Shown here piece after piece: positions 2,860 through 33,899 of a stretch of 64,000 nucleotides of DNA. Positions within the stretch are counted from its first letter, which is position 1. Every line of letters starts with the position of its first letter. The stretch covers positions 53,290 through 117,289 of the forward strand of contig JAFWYP010000035.1 of NCBI GenBank assembly GCA_017517665.1. The letters are read 5' to 3'. Origin of the DNA: Clostridia bacterium. GTDB taxonomy: Bacteria; Bacillota; Clostridia; Oscillospirales; Acutalibacteraceae. The notes beneath the pieces were generated by a model that searched no databases, was not told the origin of the DNA, and worked only from the letters and a program-made list of their open reading frames with translations. The position numbers were made by a program, and so were the translations under genes.

Positions 2860-2861
2860 AA

Positions 2862-4169: not shown

Positions 4170-4171
4170 AT

Positions 4172-5859: not shown

Positions 5860-5873
5860 ATAAATCCTCCTTA

Positions 5874-5914
5874 GTAATCGCCGTTTAAATGGGGTTTCGA
5901 TTATCAGCGATTAC
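5874..5914 (-). promoter_or_regulatory. intercistronic stem-loop before the isomerase gene
   Basis: GTAATCGC (5874-5881) and GCGATTAC (5907-5914) are perfect 8-base complements filling the space between the lipoprotein stop and the AAGGAGG of the isomerase. Its position next to the ribosome binding site suggests an mRNA processing or stability element rather than a terminator (no T-run). Confidence 0.45.
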
Positions 5915-5915
5915 C

Positions 5916-8171: not shown

Positions 8172-9672
8172 AATATCCGGAGTCCTTTGAAACTTCAAAA
8201 GTAAATATAACGCCATTTGCAACGTTTTTAACGCCGTATCTGCAGGCGTGTGCGGTCATAATGCTTTTTACAATTGAAAGACCGAGACCGAAACGGTTTT
8301 CGCTTCTGCCGTGAGCCTTATCGGCTCTGTAGAAGCTGTCCCATAGCTCGGGAAGGTCGTGCTCTGAAATGTTTTCACCTGTATTGAAAATACTTATTTC
8401 AATAAATCCGTCATGCTCTCTTGCGCTTACGGTGATTACTTTATCGCCCGAACAGTGAGAAACGGCATTTGTAATATAGTTTTTTAAAACAATTTCGATT
8501 TTATCTTCCTGAGCATAGCACATCAGATTTTTATCAACTTCGTTAAAAACCGTTATACTGTTTTGCTCAAAAAGAAGAGACAGATGATTGATAAGTGAAT
8601 GCACTTTTTGACCGAGAGAGAAATAATCGGGGTCAAAGGGCTGTGCGCCGCTTTCAAGCTTTGAAAGCTCCAGAAGTTCAACAACAAGAGAATTCATCTT
8701 TTGGCTTTCGTCGTTGATAATCTGGCAGTATTCTCTGATAACCTCGGGGTCGTCGCTTATTCCCTCGCAAAGACCCTCTGCATATCCCGATATGATTGCA
8801 ATGGGTGTTTTGAGTTCATGGGAAACATTGTTTATAAAGGATTTTCTTGCATTGTCAAGCTGATGGCGCTTTTCGATATCTTTTTCAAGACGGCTGTTTT
8901 TGTCCTTGAGGTCCATCAGCGTTGTGTCAAGCGTGTTTGAAAGAGTGTTGATGCTTGTGCCGAGTTCACCTATTTCGTCCTTGCCGTAGTTGCCGCATTT
9001 TCTTCCAAAGTTGAGTTTAGCCATATCCTTTGTGATATCGTTCATCTCAACAAGCGGTTTTGTGAATTTTGCAACAAGAAGATAGAACAGCACCGCCATG
9101 ACAAGGACCATCATTATGCTGATGAAGGAATAAACATTTCCCGCAACTTCAACTATGTTTTCAACATCTGCAACTTCGGAATAAATATACAGTATTTCAC
9201 CGGTATCCAAGGAATAGTTGTATACAAAATATTCCGTGTTGGAAATCGCTTGTTTCATTATTTTGAAACTGTCGCTTTCAACTGCATATTTTCGGTTTTC
9301 AACAGGTTTGAGAGTGGAGTAAAGAGAACTTTTTCCGCCTGTTGAAAAATGCTCGCTTCCGTAAACGGAACTTTTATTGCTTGATGTATATGAAATGTGA
9401 CCTTCCTGAGTAATCAGTTCAATATCAATGCTGTGGTTGGTTGTTATTGAGTACAGGTCAAAATAGTAAGTTGCCGATTCGGGTATGCAGGAATTAATCT
9501 CCCCGGCTGCGGTGTTCATGGTTTCATATGTATGAAAAGAAAAAACTCTGAAAAGTATGGGAGTGCTGAATACTGCAATAAGTGTCAGGAACAGAATAAG
9601 AACAGCCGTTATCATTGCAAACAGCTTGATTCTTATTCGGCTGAGCCTTATCGGAGAGATTTTCCGTTTCAA
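8155..9672 (-). CDS. sensor histidine kinase
   Basis: A 505-residue membrane sensor kinase. It has two transmembrane segments (about 16-40 and 180-201) flanking an extracellular sensor of roughly 140 residues, then HAMP, a HisKA domain with phosphoacceptor His285 in NNVSHELKTP, and an ATPase domain with N-box LKNYITNAVSH and G-box FGLGLSIVKS. It overlaps its response regulator gene by 4 bases and the downstream lipoprotein by 17. The layout (OmpR-type regulator, HAMP kinase, lipoprotein) suggests an envelope or saccharide signal. The signal itself is not known. Confidence 0.93.
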   Translation of the reverse strand: MKRKISPIRLSRIRIKLFAMITAVLILFLTLIAVFSTPILFRVFSFHTYETMNTAAGEINSCIPESATYYFDLYSITTNHSIDIELITQEGHISYTSSNKSSVYGSEHFSTGGKSSLYSTLKPVENRKYAVESDSFKIMKQAISNTEYFVYNYSLDTGEILYIYSEVADVENIVEVAGNVYSFISIMMVLVMAVLFYLLVAKFTKPLVEMNDITKDMAKLNFGRKCGNYGKDEIGELGTSINTLSNTLDTTLMDLKDKNSRLEKDIEKRHQLDNARKSFINNVSHELKTPIAIISGYAEGLCEGISDDPEVIREYCQIINDESQKMNSLVVELLELSKLESGAQPFDPDYFSLGQKVHSLINHLSLLFEQNSITVFNEVDKNLMCYAQEDKIEIVLKNYITNAVSHCSGDKVITVSAREHDGFIEISIFNTGENISEHDLPELWDSFYRADKAHGRSENRFGLGLSIVKSIMTAHACRYGVKNVANGVIFTFEVSKDSGYYDKKQ

Positions 9673-19778: not shown

Positions 19779-19935
19779 AGTATCTCCCCTTTTGCTAATG
19801 TTTAACAGTTATAGTATACTATGGAAAGGGTGAGAAATACAACAGATAATTTCATATATAAGCAAAATCAGCTTTACAAGCAACACATGGAATATTATAA
19901 TGAAATCAACAAATCAGAAATTAAGGATATTTTTT

Positions 19936-21906
19936 ATGAAAAAGAGAACAAAAGCTTTTCTTGGCATTATCATTTCAATCGCTCTTGTAATCACATTGGG
20001 AATAACAAATATTGTTCCGTATTTTTCGGTTATACCCGATATGGTAAAGGTCGGAATTGATTATATTTCCCTTGATAAAAACAAAAATTCCGTTTCCGGA
20101 ACGGAACTCATAACCAAGCTTGATTCAATTGAAATTGAGCATCCCTTCATTCTTGCAAACAAAGTAAACTTTGATGCTGTGAGAAACGAAGTGAAGAACA
20201 ATTCTTTTTCACCATATACAAATAGTCTTTATCTTTCTGCGATTGCAAACGCCGATGCGCTTCTTGATACGGAGATTTATCCCGTCTTGGAATATGTGCT
20301 CGATGAAGAAGACAGCATTCTGCCGATTTCAAGAGAGATTATCAACAGAATGATTATTCTCGGCTATGCATGGCAGATTTCAGGCGATACGAAATACGCC
20401 GAAAGAGCATGGACAGAGCTTGAAAATGTTTGTTCATATGATGACTGGTGCAATTCTCATCTTCTCGCAACTGCAGAAATGGCGCTTGCCGTTTCAATCG
20501 GTTATGACTGGTTTTTTGATTACCTTAACGATGAACAAAAAGCTCTTCTTGCGGAAAAAACATGGAAATATGCGATTGAGTCCGCACTCAATGACAATCA
20601 TTGGTTCACCTGGTCAAAGAATAACTGGAACAGCATCTGCTACAGCGGCATAGGAATTGCTTGCATGACTTTTGCAGGCAATAATCCCGAAAAAGCAGCT
20701 GAATTTCTTGCGATGTGTTACGAAAATATGCCGATTGCGTTTGAAAACTTCACCCCCGACGGTGTTTATGCCGAAGGCCCCGGCTACTGTCAGTCGGGCA
20801 TGAATTCCATTGTTTATTTCATCGCCACATCAAGAAATTTTTTCGGCACAGATTTCGGTATGTCAGAAATTGCAGGATTCAAAGAGCTCGGATATTTTCC
20901 TGTTTACATAACGACTCCGACGGGAATGTTCAATTTCGGCGATAACAAAGCAGAGCAATGCTACACACCCGTTCTTCATTGGTATGCATCGGAATATGCC
21001 TCTCCCCTGCTGAGTGCGTATCAGATGACCGATGTTCCCTCGGAGTTTGTTGCCGATACTTCCGACAACACCGAAAGAAACGGCAGCGGAAAAGAATATG
21101 CTCTTTCGTCGCTGTGGTATAACAGAGAATATTCTCAATCGGATTTTTCAAATGAACCGCTTTTCAGTTATCTTAAGTCTGATGTCGGTCAGCCGCTTGT
21201 GCTTATGCGAAGCGCATATCTCGATAAAAATGCGGCATTTGCAGGCATAAAAGGCGGATATAACTTCATAAACCACGGCGACCTTGATATCGGCACATTT
21301 GTGTTTGATGCCATGGGTGAACGCTGGGCAGAAGAGCTCGGACCGGGCAGCTATGATGCACCGAATTATTTTCTCAACACTCCCGCAGGCGGCAGATGGA
21401 AAAACTACTGCAAGCGTGCGGAAGGGCAAAACACTCTTGTTATAAATCCGGATGCAACACTCGATGACCAGTATGTGCTTGCCGAATGTGACTTTGTTTC
21501 CCATGAAGAAACAGAGGGCGGCGGAAAAGCCCTTCTTGACATGACGGATGCTTACCGCATGAACGGCGCATCAAAGGTCACAAGAGAATTTGAGCTGTAT
21601 AACAGTTCATGCCTTAAAATAACAGACAAGGTCAAATGTATTGTTCCGAGTGAGATTTACTGGTTTATGCACACAAAGGCGGATATTGAAATTACCGATA
21701 ACGGCAAAACCGCAATCCTCACAATGGGCGGAAAGCAGATGAAGGCAACTCTTTCGGGTGACGGTGAATTCTCCGTTTTGAAAGCCGAATCACTAAAAGG
21801 TAAATATGAATACGATGCGGATTATTCCGATATTCAAAAGTTAACCGTACATCTTGAAGATATCAAAGAAGCTGAAATCATTGTTGATCTTGAACCTCTA
21901 ATATAA
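19936..21906 (+). CDS. heparinase II/III-like polysaccharide lyase, membrane-anchored
   Basis: A 656-residue protein that begins with a signal anchor (KKRTKAFLGIIISIALVITL). The middle is an alpha/alpha toroid (LLATAEMALAVSIGYDWFFD, NNWNSICYSG, GPGYCQSGMN) and the last 300 residues form the beta-sandwich of heparinase II/III-type lyases (GYNFINHGDLDIGTFVFDA, GERWAEELGPGSYD). Family members eliminate uronic-acid-containing polymers such as heparin, alginate or acidic exopolysaccharides. I chose ATG 19936, which has AAGGA nine bases upstream; an earlier in-frame ATG at 19900 has no good site. It is monocistronic, before a terminator. Confidence 0.82.
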   Translation: MKKRTKAFLGIIISIALVITLGITNIVPYFSVIPDMVKVGIDYISLDKNKNSVSGTELITKLDSIEIEHPFILANKVNFDAVRNEVKNNSFSPYTNSLYLSAIANADALLDTEIYPVLEYVLDEEDSILPISREIINRMIILGYAWQISGDTKYAERAWTELENVCSYDDWCNSHLLATAEMALAVSIGYDWFFDYLNDEQKALLAEKTWKYAIESALNDNHWFTWSKNNWNSICYSGIGIACMTFAGNNPEKAAEFLAMCYENMPIAFENFTPDGVYAEGPGYCQSGMNSIVYFIATSRNFFGTDFGMSEIAGFKELGYFPVYITTPTGMFNFGDNKAEQCYTPVLHWYASEYASPLLSAYQMTDVPSEFVADTSDNTERNGSGKEYALSSLWYNREYSQSDFSNEPLFSYLKSDVGQPLVLMRSAYLDKNAAFAGIKGGYNFINHGDLDIGTFVFDAMGERWAEELGPGSYDAPNYFLNTPAGGRWKNYCKRAEGQNTLVINPDATLDDQYVLAECDFVSHEETEGGGKALLDMTDAYRMNGASKVTREFELYNSSCLKITDKVKCIVPSEIYWFMHTKADIEITDNGKTAILTMGGKQMKATLSGDGEFSVLKAESLKGKYEYDADYSDIQKLTVHLEDIKEAEIIVDLEPLI

Positions 21907-21909
21907 AAT

Positions 21910-21949
21910 AATACCGTACAATATCCGTTAAAAGATACTGTACGGTATT
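21910..21949. terminator. bidirectional terminator
   Basis: AATACCGTACA (21910-21920) and TGTACGGTATT (21939-21949) form an 11-bp stem between the converging lyase and esterase genes, with T-runs on both sides. Confidence 0.85.
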
Positions 21950-21950
21950 T

Positions 21951-22991
21951 TTATTTGCTTAAAAATTCAAAAGATTTTCTTCCGCTGACTGAGTGCTTTC
22001 CGTCAAAAACATCAATATGAAGTTTATCTTCAGCGCCGATCAATGAATAAACTCTTTTTATCTTTTCATGCGCAGTTTTGCTTGCTTCAATCGGAAACAG
22101 CTTATCGCGGATTCCCGATTCAATGAGCAATTCTCTCGGTGCAAGCGCCGAAGCAAAATCATGGATTTCGCCAATTTTCAAAGATGACGGAATATAATTA
22201 TCGGGGCAATGCCAACGGGAAAGAATGCTGTCGCGAAAAGTATTTACATATCCGCTTATAACGATTTTTCTGAATTGTTCTTCAATAACGGAAGCATAAA
22301 GTGCGGTAAGTCCTCCGCCCGAAATACCCATGCAGGATATTTTTTCTTTGTTCACATTCTCAAATCCCGAAAGGATTTCTGCGCAGACAATCGCCTGATA
22401 AACACGCATTGAAGCAACCGCAAGTCCGTAAGGCAGAAGATGATGCGAAAGCTCATCGCATGAGCTGATATAAAACGGCTTAATAAGGTCTTTTTGAAGC
22501 CTTGCTTCACCAAAACCGAAAAGCTCGGGTGCGACAACAACGCAACCGCGTTTGGCAAGCTCTGCGGCAAAGTTTTTCTGGTAATTATCGAAATAATTAA
22601 AATGCTTTTTTCTGCCTCTTTTTGATATATTCAGAATTTGTCTTACTCCGTAACCGTGACCGCACAGAGCAACCGCTCCGGGTGCAGGGTTATTTATATT
22701 TTTCGGAGTAAGAACATAGAAAAGCATATTAAGATTTTTGCAGATTTCTGCAGAATATTTCTGAAGCGTATATTCGGGATAAATCAACGCTTCTCCGACG
22801 GGAATAAGCTTCAAATCCTTTGTCTTGCAAGGAATTTTATCAATGCCGAGCATTGATTTTGTTTTTTCTTTTATTGCCTTGCCTGTTTCAAAAGCCGATT
22901 TTGCATCGTTCACATTTTCATAAGGCTTTGCAAGAATTTCATCATATATTCCTTGCATAAAAGCATCGGGAGAGTAACTGCTTTTTCTCAT
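21951..22991 (-). CDS. alpha/beta-hydrolase (acetyl-xylan-esterase-like)
   Basis: A roughly 346-residue alpha/beta-hydrolase. The nucleophile elbow is GISGGG (Ser near 225), an oxyanion stretch is CGHGYG, the acid is probably in SGIRDKLFP and the histidine in FDGKHSVSG. It resembles the long abhydrolases grouped with acetyl xylan esterases and dienelactone hydrolases. It has no signal peptide. The upstream GH3 gene ends at 22994, inside a GTGA overlap if the GTG at 22997 is used; the ATG at 22991 has better spacing from GGGGTG. It is the last gene of the OYE-SDR-flavoprotein-GH3 operon and may remove acyl groups from the same imported glycosides. Confidence 0.78.
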   Translation of the reverse strand: MRKSSYSPDAFMQGIYDEILAKPYENVNDAKSAFETGKAIKEKTKSMLGIDKIPCKTKDLKLIPVGEALIYPEYTLQKYSAEICKNLNMLFYVLTPKNINNPAPGAVALCGHGYGVRQILNISKRGRKKHFNYFDNYQKNFAAELAKRGCVVVAPELFGFGEARLQKDLIKPFYISSCDELSHHLLPYGLAVASMRVYQAIVCAEILSGFENVNKEKISCMGISGGGLTALYASVIEEQFRKIVISGYVNTFRDSILSRWHCPDNYIPSSLKIGEIHDFASALAPRELLIESGIRDKLFPIEASKTAHEKIKRVYSLIGAEDKLHIDVFDGKHSVSGRKSFEFLSK

Positions 22992-22993
22992 AA

Positions 22994-25069
22994 TCACACC
23001 CCGAAATCAATATTGCAGACGGGTTTTGCATTACGGCTGTTTGTACCAACCAAAACCGTGTATTCTTTGTCTGTTTCCCAATCGCCTTTTTCGGGGTCAT
23101 AGAATCTGATTTCATCAACAGGAATTTCAATTCCGATATTTTCGGATTTGCCCGATTCAACCGTAACTCTCTTAAAGCCTTTGAGAAGCTTTACGGGGCG
23201 GTCTTTCTCTGTATTTTTGCTCGAAACATAAACCTGAACAACCTCATCGCCGCAAACCGTGCCGATATTTTTAACGGTTACATCAACCGTTATTTTTTTA
23301 TCGTCTTTTTCCGCTTTGCAATCCGATAGTTCAAAATCGGTATATGAAAGTCCGAAACCGAACGGATACTGCGGCTCAATATTCTTTTTGTCAAAAAGGG
23401 TATAGCCGTGATAATAACCGTAATCTATTTCTCTTTCTTTATCGGCGATATGCAGAAAATCAGGATAATCCGTATCATTATATGCAATTGTAAATGGCAG
23501 TTTTCCGCCGGGGTTGACATCGCCGCTAATTATGTCTGCAAGAGCGTTACCGCCCTCAAGACCGCTGTAGAATGAAAAGAGAATTGCATCGGCAAGGTCT
23601 GTCCATTCTTTTATCACATAAGCGCTTCCGCCCATGATATTGACAATAAGCTTTTTGCCCGTTTTTGAAAGCGCCTTTATAAGCTCAACATCCTCTGAGG
23701 GAATTCTCAGATCTGCTCTGTCACCGCCCGAACCCTTAGGCTTCTTTTTGACATTACCGAGATTAACAAGGAATTCGCCTTCCTGAAGCCAGTCGCTTCC
23801 CACGCAAGCTATTATATATTCCGAATTTTCAACAGCTTCGGTTGCTTTTTGAGTATCACAGCCGTTATAAACGGTTACGTTGTTTTCACCGAATCGGTTT
23901 CTGAGTCCTTCGTATGCCGTGACGGTATAGGGACTGTAAACATTGCTGCTTCCGTGGTCGCCGACATTGACCTTGTTTGCATATCTGCCGACTACCGCAA
24001 TTTTCTTTCCGTTTGAAACAGGAAGAATTTTATTGTTGTTTTTGAGAAGAACCGTGCCTTTTCCTGCAGTTTTTCTCGCAAGTGCTGTATGCTCTTTGCT
24101 GAAAATAACGGATTTCGGCTGTTTTTTATAGTTGGGCAAGGTTTTTATCAGTGCCTTGAGAATTCTGCGTACACTCAGATTTATATCTTCTTCGGTAAGC
24201 TCGCCTTTTTTAAGTTTATAATTAAGAACGGCATAGCGGAAATAATAAGGCATTTCCATATCCATGCCCGATTTAACGCTTCTGACGGCATCATAAATTC
24301 CGTAAAAGAAATCGGAAAGAGTAAAGCCTTCAAAACCCCATTTATCTCTTAAAATATCAGTGAGGAGTTCTTTGCTTTCACAGCAATATGTTCCGTTGAC
24401 CTTGTTATATGCACCCATGATTGACATTGCACCCGCATCAATGCACTTTTTAAAATGAGGCAGATAAACCTCATGGAGTGTTCTTTCATCGGCTTTTGCA
24501 TCAACCTTGAATCGCAAATCCTCAATGCTGTTGAGTGCATAATGCTTCGGGCAGGCAATGATTCCGCTTTCCTGCATTGCTTTTGTTAAAGCCACACCCA
24601 TTTTGCCAAGGAGAAACGGGTCCTCACCATAGGTTTCCTGCGCCCTGCCCCACATGGGATTGCGAAGCAGATTTATGCACACACCCGCATAGAGATTCGC
24701 ACCGAGCGCGCTCGCTTCCTTTGCAAAAACCTTGCCGATTTCATATTCGAGTTCATCGTCAAACGCCGCACCTCTGAGCATTGAAACGGGGAAACAGGTA
24801 CATTTGCCCATAACAATTCCTCTCGGACCGTCGGTAAAAAGAACGGGAGGAATTCCGAGCCTTTTGCATCCGCCTGCGGGATAGGCTTCGCCGTTATAAT
24901 ATCTGCCTTTGGTAAGAGTGTTTTTAATTGTTACTCCCATGGCATGGCCCTGCATAAGGCGCACCTTTTCTTTTAAAGTCATTTCATCAAGAAGCTTATC
25001 TGTGACTTCATTCAGCGTTTCGCTGACGGGATTCTTTTTATAAATCTCAACCGCCTGATTAAAATTCAT
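22994..25069 (-). CDS. GH3 family beta-glycosidase
   Basis: A 691-residue GH3 enzyme. The barrel domain shows FTDGPRG, NPMWGRAQETYGEDP, KHYALNS (Lys175, His176) and the nucleophile Asp253 in TLSDFFYG; then comes the alpha/beta sandwich and a C-terminal Fn3-like domain (about 590-691). There is no signal peptide, so it acts on imported substrates. GH3 enzymes remove terminal beta-linked glucose or xylose, including from plant phenolic glycosides. The start overlaps the flavoprotein gene by 4 bases. Its place among three redox enzymes suggests it frees an aglycone for reduction. Confidence 0.9.
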   Translation of the reverse strand: MNFNQAVEIYKKNPVSETLNEVTDKLLDEMTLKEKVRLMQGHAMGVTIKNTLTKGRYYNGEAYPAGGCKRLGIPPVLFTDGPRGIVMGKCTCFPVSMLRGAAFDDELEYEIGKVFAKEASALGANLYAGVCINLLRNPMWGRAQETYGEDPFLLGKMGVALTKAMQESGIIACPKHYALNSIEDLRFKVDAKADERTLHEVYLPHFKKCIDAGAMSIMGAYNKVNGTYCCESKELLTDILRDKWGFEGFTLSDFFYGIYDAVRSVKSGMDMEMPYYFRYAVLNYKLKKGELTEEDINLSVRRILKALIKTLPNYKKQPKSVIFSKEHTALARKTAGKGTVLLKNNNKILPVSNGKKIAVVGRYANKVNVGDHGSSNVYSPYTVTAYEGLRNRFGENNVTVYNGCDTQKATEAVENSEYIIACVGSDWLQEGEFLVNLGNVKKKPKGSGGDRADLRIPSEDVELIKALSKTGKKLIVNIMGGSAYVIKEWTDLADAILFSFYSGLEGGNALADIISGDVNPGGKLPFTIAYNDTDYPDFLHIADKEREIDYGYYHGYTLFDKKNIEPQYPFGFGLSYTDFELSDCKAEKDDKKITVDVTVKNIGTVCGDEVVQVYVSSKNTEKDRPVKLLKGFKRVTVESGKSENIGIEIPVDEIRFYDPEKGDWETDKEYTVLVGTNSRNAKPVCNIDFGV

Positions 25070-26847
25070 CGCTTTTCCTCCTCTGAGTTTTTCAGATACT
25101 TTTCAAATGAGCTTTCGGGCACGGGTACGGGTTTTGTTTCTTCAAACGAAACCTTGCCGTTATCCGTCACCGTAAGATATTTTCTGTAAACGGGATTTTC
25201 AGACACCGTTTTTCCGTTTTCAATAAACACCGCACCGCCGCGGCTTCCCGTCAAAGACATTTCACCCGTTATTGTTTCAAGAAGCGTCTTTGCACTCACA
25301 AGCATATCTTTATCATAAAAATAATCGCTCAGGGATTTGTGCCTTAACGGATAATCCGATAAAATACGATTAATTTCATAAAGCAAATCCTCACATTCTT
25401 CTTTGTTGCGCAGAAATGCGGCTGATTTGCTCATTTTTGTTCTGATATGAGAATAGTCGATACTGCTGTCAATAACAAAATCCTTATACTTTTCAAAACA
25501 ATTCTGCGGAATTTCAATATCCGACTGCACTTTGTTTTTTATACCTTCAGCACACAGAAATCCGCTGACCTGAGTATCATTGAGTGCCGTGCCGCCCGGA
25601 CGTGCAAGACCGAAGGTACCTGCGGCTTCACCTATTACATAAAGATTGTCTATATCGGTTTCGTAATTGTTATCGGTATAAACTCCGCCGTTGTTATGCT
25701 GTGCGCAAACGGCAATTCTGAGCTTTTCCGAATAAATATCTATACCGTGCGAAGAATAAACCTCTATCGCTTTTGGGTTAAGAGTCTGAAGTCTTTCAAT
25801 GGGAGTTGCTTCAACCGCGCCGTTTTTTTCAAGATATTCTCTCGCTTCTTCGTTCAGGTTTTCAAAAGAAAAGCCTTCGGGGTTACGGGTAAAATCAAGA
25901 TAAACATTTCTCCCCTTTTTTGTTTCGTTATGCACCGCAACATCAACTCTTGAGGACTTTTCCGCCCTTTCATAGCTGAACGGCCATTGGTAGCCTTTGA
26001 GAAAAATATTGCTGCACATTTCCCCGGCTGTTTCAAAACAATCGTTCAGAAAATCATATTCATTTCCGTTTTCGTCAATGCTTACAAATCTCGGAATAAC
26101 CTGCATAAAACTGCCTGAAACATTCCAGCGAAAATCAACGGATGCCATGCCGTATTGCCATTGAGAATAATTGCAAAGACGGACACCCGACTCAATCAGT
26201 ACACCCGTCATACCGTGCTGAGATTCGGGATAAACCGAATTTTCATATATGCACGCAGGTGCACCCGTTGCGCACACAACATTGCGTGAGTAAAAAAGCT
26301 CAATATCGTTTGTTTTTGTATTAAGCGCGGCAACTCCGACCGCCTTGCTGCCGTTTTTCAGAATTTCAAACACCTGACGGTTATCCAAAATCGGTGTTCC
26401 GTTTCTTTCGATAACGGCATTTTCAAGCTTTTCGGTCATAACCCTTGATGTCAGTGGACCTATGGATGTTGCTCTGACGGTGTTGTCATGGTCGGTTTTA
26501 TAACCCGGAAAGCCTCCGAATTCATCTCTCGGAAAATTTACTCCATAATCAAAAAGACGCAGAAAGCATCTTGTGCTGTTGACCGCCTGAAGATACATCT
26601 TTTCGCCATCGCAACAGCCTGCCGCAAAAATATCGCTCGCCATTTTATACGGACTGTCGGCAGAAAAGCCGTCCATTGAAAGCTTGTAATATGTCTGCTT
26701 ATCGCTTCCCGTGTTTCTCGATGTACCGCTGAATCTGTTTTCGGTTATAACCGCAATATCGGTTACTCCTTCGTTATGAAGGCGGTCTGCAACACCGTAA
26801 GCTGCCGCACCGCTTCCTATTATTATTGCATCATAAATTTTTATCAT
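25066..26847 (-). CDS. fumarate-reductase-like FAD-dependent oxidoreductase
   Basis: A 593-residue flavoprotein of the SdhA/FrdA/NadB superfamily. The FAD dinucleotide site is DAIIIGSGAAAYGVADRL (residues 5-22); later come QHNNGGVYTDNNYETDIDNL and YVIGEAAGTFGLARPGGTAL, the FAD-cap region of the family. The family oxidises or reduces a carbon-carbon bond next to a carbonyl; relatives include fumarate and urocanate reductases and the tetrahydrodaidzein reductase of equol producers. There is no Tat or Sec signal and no heme or FMN domain, so electrons must come from another protein. I chose ATG 26847, overlapping the SDR stop by 4 bases; the longer frame starts inside the SDR gene. Confidence 0.85.
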   Translation of the reverse strand: MIKIYDAIIIGSGAAAYGVADRLHNEGVTDIAVITENRFSGTSRNTGSDKQTYYKLSMDGFSADSPYKMASDIFAAGCCDGEKMYLQAVNSTRCFLRLFDYGVNFPRDEFGGFPGYKTDHDNTVRATSIGPLTSRVMTEKLENAVIERNGTPILDNRQVFEILKNGSKAVGVAALNTKTNDIELFYSRNVVCATGAPACIYENSVYPESQHGMTGVLIESGVRLCNYSQWQYGMASVDFRWNVSGSFMQVIPRFVSIDENGNEYDFLNDCFETAGEMCSNIFLKGYQWPFSYERAEKSSRVDVAVHNETKKGRNVYLDFTRNPEGFSFENLNEEAREYLEKNGAVEATPIERLQTLNPKAIEVYSSHGIDIYSEKLRIAVCAQHNNGGVYTDNNYETDIDNLYVIGEAAGTFGLARPGGTALNDTQVSGFLCAEGIKNKVQSDIEIPQNCFEKYKDFVIDSSIDYSHIRTKMSKSAAFLRNKEECEDLLYEINRILSDYPLRHKSLSDYFYDKDMLVSAKTLLETITGEMSLTGSRGGAVFIENGKTVSENPVYRKYLTVTDNGKVSFEETKPVPVPESSFEKYLKNSEEEKR

Positions 26848-27581
26848 AAGCACCTTATGTTGAATCCGCCGTCGCAATCAATAACCGTGCCCGTGCAAAA
26901 ATCAAAATTGCCTGCGGCTATTGAAGCAACGCATTTTCCGATATCCTCTGGCTGACCCATTCTTCTTATGGGGGTTATCCCTTCATCAATCATTTTTTCA
27001 TATTTTTCCTTGACCTTTGCAGTCATATCCGTTTCGATAATACCGGGTCTGATTTCAAGAACACTTATTCCGTATTCCGCAAGTCTTGCGGCAAAAAGCT
27101 TTGTTATCATTGAAATTCCCGCTTTTGAAACACAATACTCTCCCCTGTTGACAGAAGCCGTATAAGACGACATTGATGAAATATTAACAATTCTTGCATT
27201 GCCGTTTTCCATGAGAAGCGGAACAAATTTCTGCGTTACAAAAAATGTACCTTTCAGATTTATATCCGTCACAAAATCAAAATCCTCGGGACTGATTTCA
27301 AGAATATCCTTTCTGACCTTGGGTGCAACACCGGCATTATTGACAAGCAAATCAAACTTTCCGAATTTTTCTTTTACAAACGAAACAAGCTTTTCAATAT
27401 CTCCGATATCGGAAATATCACACTGAACAAAAAACACTTTTCCGCTGTATTCAGCTTCAAGTTTATCAATTTCTCCGCTGATTTTTCTTGCGGAAAGAAC
27501 AACGGTGAATCCGTTTTTTAAAAGCTCTTTGGCAATACCGAGACCTATCCCTCTGCTGCCGCCCGTTATAACCGCTGTCAT
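26844..27581 (-). CDS. short-chain dehydrogenase/reductase (SDR)
   Basis: A 245-residue NAD(P)-dependent reductase of the classical SDR type: TGGSRGIGLG cofactor loop, NNAG, catalytic Ser near 136, Tyr149 and Lys153 (YCVSK), and the GxxxxD end GTVIDCDGG. FabG-like enzymes reduce keto groups of acyl, sugar or aromatic compounds. The GTG-ATG tandem start follows the OYE stop directly; I chose the ATG with GGAGAAGG upstream. It sits between the OYE and the flavoprotein, matching the DHDR position in a three-step reduction. Confidence 0.88.
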   Translation of the reverse strand: MTAVITGGSRGIGLGIAKELLKNGFTVVLSARKISGEIDKLEAEYSGKVFFVQCDISDIGDIEKLVSFVKEKFGKFDLLVNNAGVAPKVRKDILEISPEDFDFVTDINLKGTFFVTQKFVPLLMENGNARIVNISSMSSYTASVNRGEYCVSKAGISMITKLFAARLAEYGISVLEIRPGIIETDMTAKVKEKYEKMIDEGITPIRRMGQPEDIGKCVASIAAGNFDFCTGTVIDCDGGFNIRCL

Positions 27582-27584
27582 CAC

Positions 27585-28808
27585 TTACACCTTCTCCAAA
27601 ACATATTTCCGATAATACGGCATATAAACTTCCGAATCCCTGACGGGACATCCTGCAACCGTACCTGCACGCATAAGCTGTGAGCATTTACTGCATTTGA
27701 GGCAAAGCTTGCTTTTATCAAGCTGACCCTTTTCAAGATAATCCCTGTAAAACTCCGGATATGCAAAAGTGAGTCTTCCGAAGCCTGCAAAATCCGCAAC
27801 ACCGTCATCAAGGATTTTTTCTGCGTATTTCATGGCATCCGCGCCTGGATATGTGAGACCCGATGCAATAAAACAAATATCCGCAAACTCTTCTTTGAGT
27901 TCTTTTGTGACATCATAGATTCTCTTCAAACCGATTTCGCCGTCTTCTGGTGCATTTATGCAAGGACGGTTGATATGAGGAATAAGATAAGGATTGCCGA
28001 GAGTGAGATTTATAAGTCTTATACCCTTTTTATGAAGAGTTTTTATAATAAGCTTCGTTTCAGTTAAATCAATATTATTGTTTTTGTCAACACCGTAGCC
28101 GTAGGGGTAAGGGAAACAGTCGCAGGCGTTGAGTCTTGTTGTTACAAAAACATTTTCGCTGACCGCATTTTTAACGGCATCAATGCATTCAAAATAAAGC
28201 CTTGTTCTGTTTTCAAGGCTTCCGCCGTAAATTCCGTCACGCTCTGTTGCACTTAAAAATTCATTGAAAAGATACCCGTGACAGCATTTTACATCTATTC
28301 CGTCGAAGCCAACTTCCTCTGCGAGCAAGGCGACTTTGCGGTATTTTTCGGGAATTGTTTTGCAATAATCATCCGTTGCAACCGTATAAGACTGATTTTC
28401 TTTACCGATTTCCCAATGAGAATTGCGGTAAGCAACTATCGGCTGAGGTATTCCGTCAGGCTTGCTGAATCTGCCGCTGTGGGTAAGCTGAACAATGATT
28501 ACAGGTTCAAAACCGTTTACTTTCATTGCGGTTTCTTTTATTTCTTCAATCAGAATTTTAAAAGATTCCTTTGTATTTTCGTTTAAAAATAATTGTCTCG
28601 GATTTGCTCTGCCCTCCGCAGTAACGGCGGTTGCTTCAAACCAGATTATACCCGCGCCGCTTCTTGCAAAACGGAGATATCTTCTTCGGGTAAGCTCATC
28701 AACAGCACCGCCAAAAGTACCGTCGCAACCCTCCATGGGATGAAAAACAATTCTGTTTTCTATTTTTCTGTTATGCAGTTTTATCGGCAAATCCAAAACA
28801 GTTTTCAT
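27585..28808 (-). CDS. NADH:flavin oxidoreductase (old yellow enzyme family)
   Basis: A 407-residue FMN-dependent TIM-barrel oxidoreductase. The opening NRIVFHPMEGCDGTFGGAVD, ARSGAGIIWFEATAV, QLTHSGRFSKPDG and HGYLFNEFLSATERDG are typical of the stand-alone OYE group of Clostridia. The C-terminus has a cysteine cluster (CLKCSKC and AGCPVRD) in the position where the 2,4-dienoyl-CoA reductase branch binds an iron-sulfur cluster, but the second NAD/FAD domain of that branch is missing. The likely role is reduction of an activated C=C bond, e.g. of an enoate, flavone or isoflavone. It is the first gene of a five-gene operon with its own promoter (28843-28871). Confidence 0.87.
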   Translation of the reverse strand: MKTVLDLPIKLHNRKIENRIVFHPMEGCDGTFGGAVDELTRRRYLRFARSGAGIIWFEATAVTAEGRANPRQLFLNENTKESFKILIEEIKETAMKVNGFEPVIIVQLTHSGRFSKPDGIPQPIVAYRNSHWEIGKENQSYTVATDDYCKTIPEKYRKVALLAEEVGFDGIDVKCCHGYLFNEFLSATERDGIYGGSLENRTRLYFECIDAVKNAVSENVFVTTRLNACDCFPYPYGYGVDKNNNIDLTETKLIIKTLHKKGIRLINLTLGNPYLIPHINRPCINAPEDGEIGLKRIYDVTKELKEEFADICFIASGLTYPGADAMKYAEKILDDGVADFAGFGRLTFAYPEFYRDYLEKGQLDKSKLCLKCSKCSQLMRAGTVAGCPVRDSEVYMPYYRKYVLEKV

Positions 28809-28842
28809 ATATTAATTCCTCTTATAATACATAGTTGTTTTT

Positions 28843-28871
28843 ATTATAGCAGATAAATTTTTTATTTGCAA
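28843..28871 (-). promoter_or_regulatory. promoter of the OYE-SDR-flavoprotein-GH3-esterase operon
   Basis: On the minus strand TTGCAA (28871-28866), 17 bases, TATAAT (28848-28843), just downstream of the terminator at 28876-28905. Confidence 0.78.
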
Positions 28872-28875
28872 CAAA

Positions 28876-28905
28876 AAGCACCCGAAGCGATTGCCTCGGG
28901 TGCTT
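28876..28905 (-). terminator. terminator of the MFS-LRR-isomerase operon
   Basis: AAGCACCCGA (28876-28885) and TCGGGTGCTT (28896-28905) form a 10-bp stem; on the minus strand it ends in TTTTTGTTG. It separates two operons that run in the same direction. Confidence 0.9.
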
Positions 28906-28913
28906 TGAATTAT

Positions 28914-29663
28914 TCAGATATTATTTAAAATTTCTTTTGCGGCTGCAACATCTTTTTTGAACTGCGAAATACTGTCACCCTTCACGAATTCAAGAATATA
29001 ATCGGTGTTTTTGCCGTTCTCTTTAAGATAAGTAATATACTTTTGCCATTCGTCTGCACCTTTGGAAAGACTGTGCCTTATTCCGAGTCTGCCCCAATGA
29101 AAAACATGAACTCCGTTCACATATGGTGCAACTGTTTCAAGATTTTCAAAATCAGCTTTGACTCTTAAGGGCTGCCAATAGGTTGCAACGTTATCACGGC
29201 TTACGGCTTCGAGAAAATCAACCGAAGATTTTCCGTTATCATTGAACGTGCCCTCGTGGAATTCAAAAGAAAGAACTATATCGCTTTCTTTTGCTTTATC
29301 ACAGAGAATACGTGTTTCTTCAACAAGGGAATCAAAAAGAATTTTATCGGTTTTATCACTCGGTTGAGTGCCGAGCCACAGACGGATTCTTTTGCATCCG
29401 ATTTTTTCCGCAACACGAAGAATATTATCAAAAAGCTCATAATCCTTCTGACCGATTCTGTAATAACTGCCGTAGGACATTGCTTTTATTCCGTATTTTT
29501 TCTGCAAACCGAGCACATCGGAAAGAGCTTTTTCATCATCGGGAGGAAGATGCACATCCCCTCCCCATTCGATAAACTCAATTCCGTTTTCTTTTGCGGC
29601 AATGCAGATTTCTTCCCTTGAAAGCTCACGGAAGGTTACGCTTGTGAATCCTAATCTTATCAT
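28914..29663 (-). CDS. sugar phosphate isomerase/epimerase-like TIM barrel protein
   Basis: A 249-residue member of the xylose-isomerase-like TIM-barrel superfamily: LGFTSVTFRELS opening, FIEWGGDVH, LSFEFHEGTF, TYWQPLRV and VHVFHWGR are the expected metal/substrate strands. I chose ATG 29663, one base after the LRR gene stop; the longer frame would overlap it. It ends the MFS-LRR-isomerase operon before a terminator. A hexose-related substrate is likely but unproven. Confidence 0.8.
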   Translation of the reverse strand: MIRLGFTSVTFRELSREEICIAAKENGIEFIEWGGDVHLPPDDEKALSDVLGLQKKYGIKAMSYGSYYRIGQKDYELFDNILRVAEKIGCKRIRLWLGTQPSDKTDKILFDSLVEETRILCDKAKESDIVLSFEFHEGTFNDNGKSSVDFLEAVSRDNVATYWQPLRVKADFENLETVAPYVNGVHVFHWGRLGIRHSLSKGADEWQKYITYLKENGKNTDYILEFVKGDSISQFKKDVAAAKEILNNI

Positions 29664-29664
29664 A

Positions 29665-30882
29665 TTACTGTCTTTGAGCCGAATAGGCAACATCTATGCT
29701 CTTTTTAAAGAGAAGATAGTCATATTTCGGACACCAGTCGTTGCCTGCTTCAACCGTGCTTTCAAACTCTTCCTCAGAAACCGCAACGTTCATTTTAACG
29801 ATGCCCTTAAGCTCTTTTCCGTCTTTATATACGGTATCCCAGAATGCGTTATGACCGATATATTTAACGCTTGCGGGGATATACATATATTTCATTTCAC
29901 GGTTATAACTGAATGCATCCGAACCGATATATTCAAGTCCTTCGGGAAGTGAATTATAAACAGTTCCGAGAGCTTCGTCGGAAACATAGTGCGAATCTTC
30001 AACGGCTGAATCCGTCTTATAAGAATAAACATTCTCAAGAAGAGGGATTTCAAAAAAACCGAGTGTTTCGATAACTTTCAGACCTTCGGGAAGATAGACA
30101 TTTTTCATATTGGCATAGTTGAAGCTCATTTCACCGATTGTTGTAACGGTAGACGGAACAACAAATGTCATAACATCCCTGACATACTGCTCATATAGAG
30201 GGTCTTCCGCAGCAGGCTCAATGCGCCAGCCGTTATTGTCATATTCCGCAAAACCGTATTTCTCTGCAAGATATGTATCATGGTCGCAGGGTCTGCAGAT
30301 AAGCTCTGTTTTATCTTTGTTATAAAGAACACCGTCAACATCGCAGTAATTGGGATTGTTTTTGTCAACTCTGATTTCACGTAGTGCCCAACATGAATAG
30401 AAAGCCTTTGAGTCAACCTTTTCAACGCCTGCGCCTATGGTTATAATCTGAACCTTTTCATCGCAGTTAAGCACATAGCTTCCCACTTCGGTTACAGGCT
30501 TTGTTTTGTCTTTTACGACCTTGAAGTTTGTTTTGGGGTCAGGATTTCCGAGTTCGTATTCGACATCCGTGACATAATCTATTTCAAGTTCGGTTATGAA
30601 TCCCGTGTTGCTGAATCTTGTGAAAGCATATCCGTTCTGCACCTGCTCGAATTCAAATGTATCTTTTCTGAGGGTGAGTACGCTGAAAAAACACGAAAGG
30701 GAAACCGCAAGAACTATTGTCACAACAAAGATAACTTTTTTAATGTTATAATGCTTCGGAGTCTGATTGATTCTCGGTGCTGCAAGACCTTCAACCTGAT
30801 AAGTCCATATTTCATCCTCGGGAATATCGAGATGTATGGGTTCATTAACCGTAACATTTATCTTTTTTTCTTTTTTGCTCAT
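29665..30882 (-). CDS. membrane-anchored BspA-type leucine-rich-repeat protein
   Basis: A 405-residue protein. Residues 1-46 are cytoplasmic-looking and polar, a single membrane helix follows (about 48-70: KKVIFVVTIVLAVSLSCFFS), and the rest carries several LRR_5 (BspA/TpLRR) repeats such as VDSKAFYSCWALREI, YIGSDAFSYNREMKYMYIP and YIGHNAFWD. Such repeats bind proteins or glycans on the cell surface. GGGGGTG lies before the ATG, 14 bases from the MFS gene. The tight coupling to a transporter and a sugar isomerase is unusual and points to a role in capture. Confidence 0.8.
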   Translation of the reverse strand: MSKKEKKINVTVNEPIHLDIPEDEIWTYQVEGLAAPRINQTPKHYNIKKVIFVVTIVLAVSLSCFFSVLTLRKDTFEFEQVQNGYAFTRFSNTGFITELEIDYVTDVEYELGNPDPKTNFKVVKDKTKPVTEVGSYVLNCDEKVQIITIGAGVEKVDSKAFYSCWALREIRVDKNNPNYCDVDGVLYNKDKTELICRPCDHDTYLAEKYGFAEYDNNGWRIEPAAEDPLYEQYVRDVMTFVVPSTVTTIGEMSFNYANMKNVYLPEGLKVIETLGFFEIPLLENVYSYKTDSAVEDSHYVSDEALGTVYNSLPEGLEYIGSDAFSYNREMKYMYIPASVKYIGHNAFWDTVYKDGKELKGIVKMNVAVSEEEFESTVEAGNDWCPKYDYLLFKKSIDVAYSAQRQ

Positions 30883-30896
30883 GTTTTTTCACCCCC

Positions 30897-32651
30897 TTAT
30901 CCTATGTAGCCGCCGCTGATCTTTTCGCCTTCTTCTTTTGCCTTCTTTTCCGTTACTTCCGCACGGCGCTTGAGCACTTCCATAACCATGTTCTGCTTTG
31001 TGCTGTCGTAATCCCAGAACAGATAAGGAATTGTCATAAGAGTGAAGCCGACAACATCGAATATCAGCGGTATAATGATAATATTTGCTCTTGATGAATC
31101 AAGGAAAAGGATATCCCAGTTACTGTTGAAACCATATCCGAGAAGCATAAGAGGAATGATAAGACCAACGAAATTCTTTATCGGGTCTGTGAACCATCCG
31201 AAAACGCTTGAGAAGCTTTCGAGACGTTCTCCCGAAAGATACATCTGATAGTCTTTGATACGCACATCCATATCGTGACCCGCGGTGGTGGGAACGGTCT
31301 TTGTCATTTCCATAAAGAAAAGAACAACAACGCATATTGTACCGCAAAGGTTAACGTTATCTCCGCAGAACCACATTGCGGCAATTATGAGTGCATTTCC
31401 TATTGCTCTTGAAAGCTGATAGAAAATCATAATCTGCTTATATGAGAATCTCTTAAGGAAATAAGGCGAGAGGAAATCGGGCGGTGTTCCCGCAAACGAA
31501 ATCAGCATTACAATCAGACTGTAGGGCAAGCCGCTGAGTCTGAAAGTATAAAGATAAAGAATTGTTGTTAACGGCAGCATACCGTTACCCAGAGCATCAA
31601 TAAGACCTACAACCGTATTAATCAGCAGATATTTATTTCTTAAAACGCCGAACATACCGTCCCAGAACTTAATCTGAACCTTCTTTTCAACAGGAGGCTG
31701 AGGTATTCTTTCTTTGACTCTGCCGGCAAATACCATTGTCATTACGGCAAAGAAAATGAAGGTTCCGGGGATAACATATCTGTAAAGATTGATGTCTGCC
31801 CATTCATCTTTGAGGAAGCCGATTGCAATTGAAATAGCAAGGCTTGAAAGGGTGTTGAAAAAATGGGAAAGCTTTACGGGATAGCTTCTGACAAGGATTC
31901 TTTCCTGCAGGTCAGGGCTTATGCTCTTTGTGCAGATTTCCATGTTATTTGCAAATCCGAAAACATTGTATGTGGCAAAAAGAAGGTTGCCGACCCATAC
32001 TCTTGTTGCAACATCGGGAATGTTGTAAACGGGAAGCCAGCCGATGAGGATTACCATTATGCACTTTGGCACAACGTCACAATAGAGAGAATACTTGTAT
32101 CTGCCGAATTTCGGAAGAAGCTTTTTACGCCAGAAAATATTTCTTGCACCGACCCATCCGGTATAAAGGAAATGCGTACCGAACGTTTTGAAGCACGCCG
32201 CGGCATTCATTCCCTCAAAGCCGTTGAGCAGACGAATGAAGTTGCCCGTCTGGTCAAACAAGGTGGAATAGTCAAACAAAATCGTTGATATGCCGAATAT
32301 CATCATAAGAGCGTATGCCAGATAAAACTTTTTCTCGGTTTTCTTCGGAAGGAATCCGAGATTGTCACAAACAAGCCACCACATAAGTGCGGAGATATAG
32401 TTAAGCGGCATATTGAGAATACCGATAACCGAAAAAGTAAGGTAGGGAAGCTTGTAATGGTGCATGATAAGATAGCAGGATGAGAAAAAACCTATGTATT
32501 CAAGCACCTTTGAGCCTGCGTAATTACTGCCGACGGCAAGAACAACATCTTTATACTCTTTGTAAGGGACATATTTTCCTTCGGCGGGAGTATTCCAATG
32601 TTCTTTGATTTCCGTGAACAGCCATTTGACCTTGCTGAGCAATGCGTTCAT
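30897..32651 (-). CDS. MFS/GPH-type transporter
   Basis: A 584-residue membrane protein with about 12 hydrophobic segments, resembling glycoside-pentoside-hexuronide (GPH) symporters of the MFS fold (for example RIKDYQMYLSGERLESF, the loop that carries the conserved D/TGxR-like motif). Substrates are probably oligosaccharides or glycosides. I chose ATG 32651 because AAGGAGG lies seven bases upstream and the promoter at 32680-32708 would otherwise fall in the gene. It leads the MFS-LRR-isomerase operon. The polar C-terminal tail (about 40 residues, Lys/Glu rich) is cytoplasmic. Confidence 0.82.
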   Translation of the reverse strand: MNALLSKVKWLFTEIKEHWNTPAEGKYVPYKEYKDVVLAVGSNYAGSKVLEYIGFFSSCYLIMHHYKLPYLTFSVIGILNMPLNYISALMWWLVCDNLGFLPKKTEKKFYLAYALMMIFGISTILFDYSTLFDQTGNFIRLLNGFEGMNAAACFKTFGTHFLYTGWVGARNIFWRKKLLPKFGRYKYSLYCDVVPKCIMVILIGWLPVYNIPDVATRVWVGNLLFATYNVFGFANNMEICTKSISPDLQERILVRSYPVKLSHFFNTLSSLAISIAIGFLKDEWADINLYRYVIPGTFIFFAVMTMVFAGRVKERIPQPPVEKKVQIKFWDGMFGVLRNKYLLINTVVGLIDALGNGMLPLTTILYLYTFRLSGLPYSLIVMLISFAGTPPDFLSPYFLKRFSYKQIMIFYQLSRAIGNALIIAAMWFCGDNVNLCGTICVVVLFFMEMTKTVPTTAGHDMDVRIKDYQMYLSGERLESFSSVFGWFTDPIKNFVGLIIPLMLLGYGFNSNWDILFLDSSRANIIIIPLIFDVVGFTLMTIPYLFWDYDSTKQNMVMEVLKRRAEVTEKKAKEEGEKISGGYIG

Positions 32652-32679
32652 TGAATCAATCCTCCTTTTTATATAAAAT

Positions 32680-32708
32680 ATAGTAGCATAAACAGAATAT
32701 GTTTGCAA
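32680..32708 (-). promoter_or_regulatory. promoter of the MFS operon
   Basis: On the minus strand TTGCAA (32708-32703), 17 bases, TACTAT (32685-32680). Its -35 box overlaps the palindrome AACAAATTTGTT. Confidence 0.65.
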
Positions 32709-32718
32709 CAAATTTGTT
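32707..32718. promoter_or_regulatory. palindromic operator candidate AACAAATTTGTT
   Basis: A perfect 12-base palindrome overlapping the -35 end of the MFS promoter and about 100 bases upstream of the divergent lipase gene. A LacI- or GntR-type repressor site is plausible; no such regulator lies beside it. Confidence 0.5.
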
Positions 32719-32813
32719 AAAATTATACGATAATCAGAACTTTTGCATATTGTTTTTATTTCAATATTGATATACAATACTAATTATCTTATAAAGAAAA
32801 AAGAGGAAACAAT

Positions 32814-33899
32814 ATGGCAAGAATAATTTCAATACCTCTTGCAATTATCATGAGCATTTTTTCTTTGATTTTTCCTTGCAACGATAAGGAAATTGACACG
32901 GAAGGCTGGAACACAGACTATGCTTATGTTTTTGTTCACGGTCTTTCCGGTTGGGGAAGCTACGACGCTGCTTACAAAATCATGCCCTACTGGGGAATGT
33001 TCAACGGCAATCTGCTCAACAAGCTCAACAAAAACGGATTTGACTGCTATGCCGCTTCGGTTGCACCGACCTCCAGCGCATGGGACAGAGCCTGCGAGCT
33101 TTATGCTCAGCTGACGGGTACGGTTGTTGACTACGGAAAAGAGCACAGTGAGCGTTGCGGTCACGATAGATTCGGAGATGATTTTACAGGCAAGGCTCTT
33201 ATTAAAAAATGGGATTCGGAAAATAAAATAAACCTTCTCGGTCACTCCTTCGGCGGTGCAACGATAAGAGTTTTTGCAACTCTCATGGCAGTCGGAAGCG
33301 AGGCTGAAAAGGCTGCAACGGATGCAAATGATATTTCTCCCTTCTTCACGGGCGAAAAGGCAGACTGGATTTATTCAATGACAGCTCTTGCCGCCCCTCA
33401 TAACGGAACAACCGCTTACGGCTTTGAAGACTCATCACCCGAAAACGCAGATACAGCGGCATATGATATGTTTATTGACCATGCACTTGAGCTTAATAAA
33501 AATATGGTTACAAGCGAAAAAACATATTATTTCTCATTCCCCTGCTCATCAACGGTTAAACAGAATGACGGCACATATAAAGTTGATAAAAAGCTGACCG
33601 AAATCCTTTTTCAGAGCAGCGCAAATGAAATGGGCGCTCTCACGGGAACAACCGCGGGCGGATATACTGTTGACGACAGCTGGCTTGAAAACGACGGACT
33701 TGTTAATACAATATCTGCCGCCGCACCCTCAAGCGCACCGACAAAAGATTTTGATAAAAACAGCACTGAAAAAGGCATATGGAACATTATGCCCACCTAT
33801 CAGGGCGACCATATGTCACTTCAGGGCGGACTTTTAAAGGTTAATTCCGATGTTGAGGATTTCTATATTGAACACCTCGGCATGATAAACAGCTTATAA
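32814..33899 (+). CDS. secreted or anchored lipase, Bacillus/Staphylococcus type (family I.5/I.6-like)
   Basis: A 361-residue lipase. The triad is readable: Ser145 in LLGHSFGGAT, Asp294 in WLENDGLVNT and His333 in QGDHMSLQGG, the exact signatures of the thermophilic Bacillus and staphylococcal lipases. The N-terminus (MARIISIPLAIIMSIFSLIF) is a hydrophobic segment with one arginine, likely a signal or anchor. It hydrolyses acylglycerols or other esters. AAGAGGAAAC precedes the start. Its stop and that of the YolD-like gene on the other strand overlap by 6 bases. Confidence 0.87.
   Translation: MARIISIPLAIIMSIFSLIFPCNDKEIDTEGWNTDYAYVFVHGLSGWGSYDAAYKIMPYWGMFNGNLLNKLNKNGFDCYAASVAPTSSAWDRACELYAQLTGTVVDYGKEHSERCGHDRFGDDFTGKALIKKWDSENKINLLGHSFGGATIRVFATLMAVGSEAEKAATDANDISPFFTGEKADWIYSMTALAAPHNGTTAYGFEDSSPENADTAAYDMFIDHALELNKNMVTSEKTYYFSFPCSSTVKQNDGTYKVDKKLTEILFQSSANEMGALTGTTAGGYTVDDSWLENDGLVNTISAAAPSSAPTKDFDKNSTEKGIWNIMPTYQGDHMSLQGGLLKVNSDVEDFYIEHLGMINSL

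Follow-up and report, generated by a model that had tools for sequence, protein, structure and literature searches.

What could a bacterium do with an operon in which three redox enzymes are coupled to a glycosidase and an esterase? The question is raised by a 64,000-nucleotide stretch of DNA (the window) from a Clostridia bacterium of the family Acutalibacteraceae (GCA_017517665.1, contig JAFWYP010000035.1), where five consecutive minus-strand genes encode an old yellow enzyme (OYE), a short-chain dehydrogenase/reductase (SDR), a fumarate-reductase-like flavoprotein, a glycoside hydrolase of family 3 (GH3) and an esterase. The initial annotation of the window took them for a pathway that deglycosylates and reduces plant phenolics with the redox families of equol formation, and named redox processing of the sugar itself as the alternative. 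It is this alternative that now reads better, on gene context rather than phylogeny. The five genes, the TIM-barrel, leucine-rich-repeat (LRR) and GPH-like genes upstream and a convergent gene resembling polysaccharide lyases of family 35 (PL35) can be explained as a uronide-utilisation locus, in which OYE, SDR and flavoprotein (the trio) would handle an unsaturated or keto-deoxy sugar acid; the probability of this reading is put at about 0.48. Gene families, gene order, conserved linkage, kept or lost catalytic residues and co-occurrence form its observed basis. The operon and its signals are as follows.

27585..28808, minus strand: OYE-type FMN protein, 407 aa, with a 4Fe-4S-type motif (C369, C372, C375, C387), Lys174 to His177 at the expected substrate site and no C-terminal FAD/NAD domain
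26844..27584, minus strand: SDR, 246 aa, ATG at 27581, NCBIfam NF009386 (PRK12745) above cut-off
25066..26847, minus strand: FAD_binding_2 flavoprotein, 593 aa, ATG start, alternative TTG at 26877
22994..25069, minus strand: GH3 exo-glycosidase, 691 aa, no membrane-like N-terminus
21951..22991, minus strand: Abhydrolase_7 esterase, ATG at 22991, alternative GTG at 22997
21910..21949, minus strand: terminator-like hairpin, 17 pairs, z -7.9, between the convergent esterase and PL35-like genes
28843..28871, minus strand: promoter-like site with TG ahead of the -10 hexamer
28875..28906, minus strand: terminator-like hairpin with a T run, folded stretch z -7.3, between the TIM and OYE genes

The open reading frames confirm five abutting genes at 21951-28808, joined by gaps of 0-3 bases or overlaps of 4 bases, and Pfam agrees at the superfamily level with the families named in the initial annotation (Oxidored_FMN, adh_short, FAD_binding_2, GH3, Abhydrolase_7). 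PF00724 matches the OYE at 102.8 bits (cut-off 27), PF00890 the flavoprotein at 65.1 bits (cut-off 20.4), and NF009386 the SDR at 299 bits (cut-off 250), the name of the last family, 3-ketoacyl-ACP reductase, being no evidence of function. The GH3 protein has N and C domains plus Fn3 according to Pfam; it matches no NCBIfam equivalog above cut-off, hence its sugar specificity is unassigned. The esterase weakly resembles a putative acetyl xylan esterase (3nuz, E 3e-4), and an NCBIfam search returned no family for it, for the TIM barrel of the window or for that of a relative (locus L068). The initial annotation gave none of the five proteins a signal peptide, and none has a membrane-like stretch in a simple hydropathy scan, which is not a signal-peptide predictor. 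At the proposed terminator there is indeed a strong hairpin, which may serve both convergent genes, since the plus-strand gene 19900-21906 stops just beside it. The proposed promoter exists as a site, but such sites are as a class no commoner than in shuffles (26 found, 28.6 expected). The hairpin at 28875-28906, absent from the list of the scan that gave the terminal one, separates the operon from the TIM, LRR and GPH-like genes that lie upstream, and the view of one operon coupling hydrolases to three redox enzymes is supported.

Which part of this operon is conserved? Of 250 sampled genomes of the same family, 51 carry the flavoprotein (E up to 1e-40), as do 43 of 398 from across the phylum (E up to 1e-60). 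A public genome collection has it at 33 loci, with herbivore gut or faeces samples named in 22 of their titles. The flavoprotein is missing from two of the three other same-genus genomes and is therefore an accessory trait. In a plasmid search with the OYE (2135 records), the best match apart from Subdoligranulum was about 30% identical. The 97 loci collected were reduced to 92 by dropping flavoproteins at least 95% identical, that is, to 91 excluding the window. Genes were counted by a six-frame scan, its profiles derived from these very loci, which was preferred to gene calling because the latter lost genes under antisense open reading frames (e.g., the OYE of L146); the short loci L001-L030 and L104-L123 were left out of these counts, and some neighbourhoods are cut by contig ends.

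OYE, SDR and flavoprotein genes are consecutive and co-directional in 61 of the 91 other loci: in 25/27 of the close ones, whose flavoprotein is at least 58% identical to that of the window, in 35/52 at 35-58% and in 1/12 below 35%. In 73 of 92 loci (72/91 without the window), an OYE match is no more than 6 kb away from the flavoprotein; in three, it is further out. All five genes occur on one strand within 6 kb in 17 of the 27 close loci and in none of the 64 others. Because the five-gene block is confined to close loci while the trio is widespread, the trio is the older unit, to which GH3 and esterase seem to have been added locally. The linkage that had been expected for all five genes thus holds widely for the trio, but only among close relatives for the block.

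What surrounds the trio, in the window and elsewhere, bears on its substrate. The neighbours of the operon in the window are listed below.

28914..29663, minus strand: AP_endonuc_2 TIM-barrel protein, isomerase/epimerase-like; a longer open reading frame reaches 29693
29665..30882, minus strand: BspA-type LRR protein with one membrane-like stretch, between the transporter and TIM genes
30897..32651, minus strand: GPH-like transporter, TIGR00792 at 32 bits, far under the cut-off, no Pfam match
19900..21906, plus strand: PL35-like polysaccharide lyase, DUF4962 plus Hepar_II_III, one N-terminal membrane-like stretch, convergent with the operon

A GPH transporter had been placed upstream in the initial annotation, and a GPH-like gene is next door, by a match below the TIGR00792 cut-off. 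The TIM protein belongs to the same family as the TIM gene found within the trio operon of relatives and is 46-54% identical to the TIM proteins of L012 and L013 (both cut by the locus end), L053 and L054. Further off, at 1234-9672, a DUF5696 protein of 768 aa (5916-8222) adjoins a histidine kinase and is followed by an alpha-galactosidase (2862-4169) and a purple acid phosphatase (1234-2859).

Within 6 kb of the flavoprotein in the 91 loci, a TIM barrel is found in 34, a D-2-hydroxyacid dehydrogenase in 30, either of them in 38, an AraC-type regulator in 21 and a Gfo/Idh protein in 11. With the window included, near and far loci number 35 vs 1 for TIM, 30 vs 2 for D-2-hydroxyacid dehydrogenase and 21 vs 6 for AraC, in about 1014 kb of near and 530 kb of far sequence, where far counts take any match beyond 6 kb and far length runs only to 12 kb. 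On a flavoprotein tree, the presence of TIM and of D-2-hydroxyacid dehydrogenase changes together (13 independent pairs, median sign-test p 0.03), which is indicative only; the tree is a quick one with long branches, from which L051, L063, L126 and L130 were left out (cut flavoprotein or short contig) and to which L149, L151 and NadB were added. Pfam and NCBIfam annotation of 70 hand-picked neighbouring proteins, many of them partners in one or a few loci and several of no family, revealed MFS_2 transporters, TRAP DctP or DctM (TRAP genes at L058, L135, L136 and L144), ribose-type ABC transporters and LacI regulators, zinc alcohol dehydrogenases in seven loci, Gfo/Idh and URO-D proteins, and the glycan enzymes GH30, GH35, GH16, GH38 and lacto-N-biose phosphorylase, along with ThuA and two proteins weakly like PL22, under the Pfam cut-off. 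KduI/IolB, CoA transferase and crotonase are neighbours at L124, an IlvD/EDD-type dehydratase and TIM at L146 (Subdoligranulum variabile), and a KdgK-like kinase, under its cut-off, at L145. The genes that recur near the trio suggest a sugar-acid substrate, and the lyases described below suggest unsaturated uronides.

Several individual neighbourhoods deserve separate mention. Lacto-N-biose phosphorylase stands beside Gfo/Idh, OYE and flavoprotein genes (L131:4122-6308), and the URO-D family proteins beside TRAP, OYE and flavoprotein genes (L135:15066-16475, L136:6673-7722). At L067:6308-8858, where no OYE was found, a fumarase-class lyase and a malic enzyme directly follow SDR and flavoprotein. 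A soluble-looking protein of 540-560 aa of no Pfam family lies between flavoprotein and TIM (L082:11187-12875, L095:3533-5146), in the place where other loci have a transporter or lyase.

Heparinase-fold lyases recur with the trio, which is further evidence against a phenolic substrate. The best PDB matches of the PL35-like protein are PL35 lyases (profile E 1e-77 to 1e-75; single sequence 7e-58). In the part of the report available on GAGase II, Asn192, Tyr246 and His401 are given as catalytic, and His403, Asp405, Asp421 and His457 as Mn ligands (PMC12088678); by alignment, the catalytic residues are kept in the window protein as N242, Y296 and H459. Asn191 of GAGase II corresponds to N241, a position held, in the same part of the report, by His188 in the alginate-active GAGase III (PMC12088678). 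The PL35-like gene is present in 15 of the 250 family genomes, 13 of which also carry the flavoprotein, itself in 51/250 (Fisher 2e-8); by genus the co-occurrence is 10/12 vs 39/135 (p 7e-5), and relatedness inflates both tests. By their coordinates, the two are linked in five of the 13 shared genomes and unlinked in eight; ten PL35-like genes lie away from the trio, eight in flavoprotein genomes and two in others. For comparison, GH88/GH105 occurs in 18/51 flavoprotein genomes vs 44/199 others (p 0.07). PF07940 gives 52 matches over the 51 flavoprotein genomes, nine of them within 6 kb of the flavoprotein where uniform placing predicts 0.31, in a search that missed the window's own copy (30.8 bits in a separate Pfam scan). 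These nine genes fall into three subfamilies, PL35-like (4), HEP2 (2) and HEP3 (3).

HEP3 copies are located inside or beside the trio as follows.

L149:5110-6870, L085:11834-13636, L094:8178-10034, L040:13127-14842: HEP3 lyases

The copy of L040 scores below the Pfam cut-off and matches that of L149 at 405 bits. Inside the operon, the order is OYE-SDR-FAD-HEP3-TIM-HADH in L149 and OYE-HEP3-SDR-FAD-TIM-HADH in L085. HEP3 retains Asn242, Tyr296 and His459 (window numbering) together with the complete set of four metal positions. Its N-terminus lacks a hydrophobic stretch, so the lyase is probably cytoplasmic.

What can be read from the redox enzymes themselves? All 31 aligned OYE members carry the motif C-x2-C-x2-C-x11/12-C and end 5-31 residues past its last cysteine. 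In E. coli FadH, the motif is C335-x2-C-x3-C-x11-C354, and the chain continues beyond it as the FAD/NADPH part. Lys174 and His177 are invariant, within a substrate-site stretch Lys-Cys-Cys-His; YqjM has two histidines in their place. Since the OYE has no coenzyme part of its own after the 4Fe-4S motif, its electron donor may be ferredoxin, direct NAD(P)H at FMN or the partner flavoprotein. The nearest solved proteins of the flavoprotein are L-aspartate oxidase and fumarate reductase. In E. coli NadB, His244, Arg290, His351 and Arg386 are active-site residues, the last being the substrate arginine. Only Arg386 of the four is kept, as R416; H244, R290 and H351 are replaced by Gly233, Ser298 and Gln383, each in 44 of 45 members.

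We infer every substrate, the order of reactions and the path of electrons in the following scheme. The membrane-anchored PL35-like enzyme would cleave a uronic-acid-containing glycan by beta-elimination to 4,5-unsaturated oligosaccharides, which the GPH-like protein would import. The esterase would then strip acyl groups, GH3 would take off a beta-linked neutral sugar, and the TIM barrel would isomerise the unsaturated uronate so released or the keto-deoxy acid formed by its opening. The OYE would reduce a conjugated C=C bond with its FMN, Lys174/His177 lying at the substrate and the 4Fe-4S cluster delivering the electrons; the SDR would perform a ketone/alcohol step, and the flavoprotein a redox step beside a carboxylate held by Arg416. 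The product would finally enter central sugar-acid metabolism.

The flavoprotein also has a distant branch. Plasmid records led to an E. coli relative of about 34% identity, encoded between ytfB and rplI (L144, NZ_CP135245.1 179692-188615) together with an SDR, a TIM barrel, a crotonase, a CoA transferase and a TRAP transporter; this cluster is found in one place at a coverage of at least 80% in 1440 of 5426 complete E. coli genomes. In Rhizobium CCGE532, the flavoprotein is accompanied by Gfo/Idh, a KdgK-like kinase (250 bits, cut-off 400), an aldolase, a CoA transferase and a crotonase. Both relatives show the same four letters, Gly, Ser, Gln and Arg, at the positions compared with NadB. In the part of the source available on deoxyribonate, a beta-ketoacid route after SDR oxidation of the deoxy sugar acid is proposed (PMC6365646), and by analogy it may be a model for the CoA-transferase variants.

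Several observations weigh against a uronide-utilisation locus. Three of the four L-aspartate oxidase residues are gone from the flavoprotein, and its chemistry is therefore not readable from its family. The window lyase keeps one of four Mn ligands (Asp405 as D463, the others being D461, E479 and Q510), which is why the gene 19900-21906 is called PL35-like; it is convergent, outside the operon, and within 6 kb in 10 of the 27 close loci. Among the neighbours annotated, a lyase of the three subfamilies lies within 6 kb in only 18 of 91 loci (PL35-like 11, HEP2 4, HEP3 3, the last at L040, L085 and L094), and some single-locus neighbours are unrelated to sugar, namely MetH-like, CotH and RCC1 proteins, PrmA, glutamine synthetase, an ammonium transporter and ClpB. 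No OYE and no lyase were detected in the scanned 25-kb E. coli and Rhizobium stretches; therefore, a link to unsaturated uronides is not inherent in the flavoprotein. Further, the 15 PL35-like genomes carry KduI/IolB (14/15), KDPG aldolase (15/15) and UxaC (15/15) elsewhere, so that the ordinary uronate route is not missing, and the trio would complement rather than replace it. No match to GH88/GH105 was found in 11 of these 15 genomes, including that of the window (88.7% complete); this gap neither proves nor excludes the need for another route.

It is possible, with a chance well below even, that the trio belongs to a general module for epimerisation or deoxygenation of sugars and sugar acids, fed by lyases only in some hosts. 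Oxidation by SDR, Zn-ADH or Gfo/Idh, isomerisation or dehydration by TIM or IlvD/EDD, and a flavin-dependent reduction would then act on varied sugar acids or cyclitols. The partners do vary by clade (Zn-ADH, Gfo/Idh, KduI/IolB, IlvD/EDD, TRAP, ribose-type ABC, lacto-N-biose phosphorylase, GH38), while the flavoprotein persists, mostly with an OYE within 6 kb. However, such a module leaves unexplained both the recurrence of three heparinase-fold lyase subfamilies beside the trio and the unlinked co-occurrence.

Distinctly unlikely is a mere adjoining of two separate systems, in which GH3 and esterase would form a glycoside module of their own, the redox trio would be unrelated to it and the PL35-like gene would be a bystander. 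The orientation and patchy linkage of the latter, which lies away from the trio in 8 of 13 genomes, would suit such an arrangement, but it co-occurs with the flavoprotein even when unlinked, the GH3 gene overlaps that of the flavoprotein by 4 bases, and 17 of 27 close loci keep the five-gene block intact.

Least probable of all is an isoflavone-like pathway, in which GH3 and esterase would free an aglycone to be reduced by the trio: the same three superfamilies serve equol formation, both hydrolases share the operon and herbivore gut sources prevail in the record titles (22/33), but the OYE lacks the C-terminal coenzyme domain that the available parts of the reports give to daidzein reductase (PMC6566806, PMC9164157), the recurrent partners are genes for sugars and sugar acids, and GH3 and esterase accompany the trio in 0/64 loci beyond close relatives.

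If the locus does serve uronide utilisation, an apparent phenol operon turns into a lead on the use of uronic-acid glycans by gut anaerobes, whether host glycosaminoglycans or plant acids, through a conserved redox module whose flavoprotein reaches as far as E. coli. A literature search found nothing that gives this gene combination a function. One could go further, although the odds are rather poor, and see here a new, flavin-based way of processing unsaturated or keto-deoxy uronic acids, with an OYE devoid of an NAD(P)H/FAD domain working with a separate FAD protein, and with the family of the latter also serving the TRAP/CoA-transferase sugar-acid cluster of E. coli. In such a route, the active site of the FAD protein may have been rebuilt for a sugar acid, and the oxidation by one flavoprotein may pay for the reduction by the other.

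How does the locus compare with known systems? DHDR and THDR of the equol pathway belong to the SDR and fumarate-reductase-like flavoprotein families, and the pathway (DZNR, DHDR, THDR of Adlercreutzia, Slackia and Lactococcus 20-92) shares with the trio a clustering of these two families with an OYE. Placement relative to the equol enzymes was judged by architecture, residues and gene context, and equol-type membership was rejected on OYE architecture (407 aa; 31/31 members ending soon after the motif). In the parts of the reports available, the Eggerthella daidzein reductase holds FMN, FAD and 4Fe-4S, whereas the window OYE is devoid of the coenzyme part, and the equol cluster includes a racemase and an electron-transfer flavoprotein (PMC6566806, PMC9164157). 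Neither was found among the Pfam-scanned window genes 19900-33899 or the 70 hand-picked proteins of relatives, which are part of all neighbours, in scans that held no racemase model. OYEs of the FadH/BaiCD/BilR type likewise have the barrel followed by a four-cysteine motif, and the window type differs from them in cysteine spacing, early end and the Lys-Cys-Cys-His substrate site. L-aspartate oxidase and fumarate reductase share with the flavoprotein the sequence family, the FAD site and the kept arginine, but not the Gly, Ser and Gln substitutions. With the PL35 GAGases, the window lyase has in common the sequence family and the Asn/Tyr/His set, and it differs in three of four Mn ligands and in its N-terminal membrane-like stretch. 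The Anaerostipes inositol-propionate pathway has a CoA transferase and an enoyl-CoA hydratase in common with the E. coli and Rhizobium clusters and was rejected as a direct model, as the words flavin and FAD are absent from the available part of its main text (PMC8355322). The KduI/KduD-KDG route is alike in applying an isomerase and an SDR to lyase products. A simple replacement of KduI/KduD by the trio was rejected, since the genome has KduI/IolB and KDPG aldolase genes at other sites; what the trio loci add to this scheme is two flavoproteins and, often, a D-2-hydroxyacid dehydrogenase.

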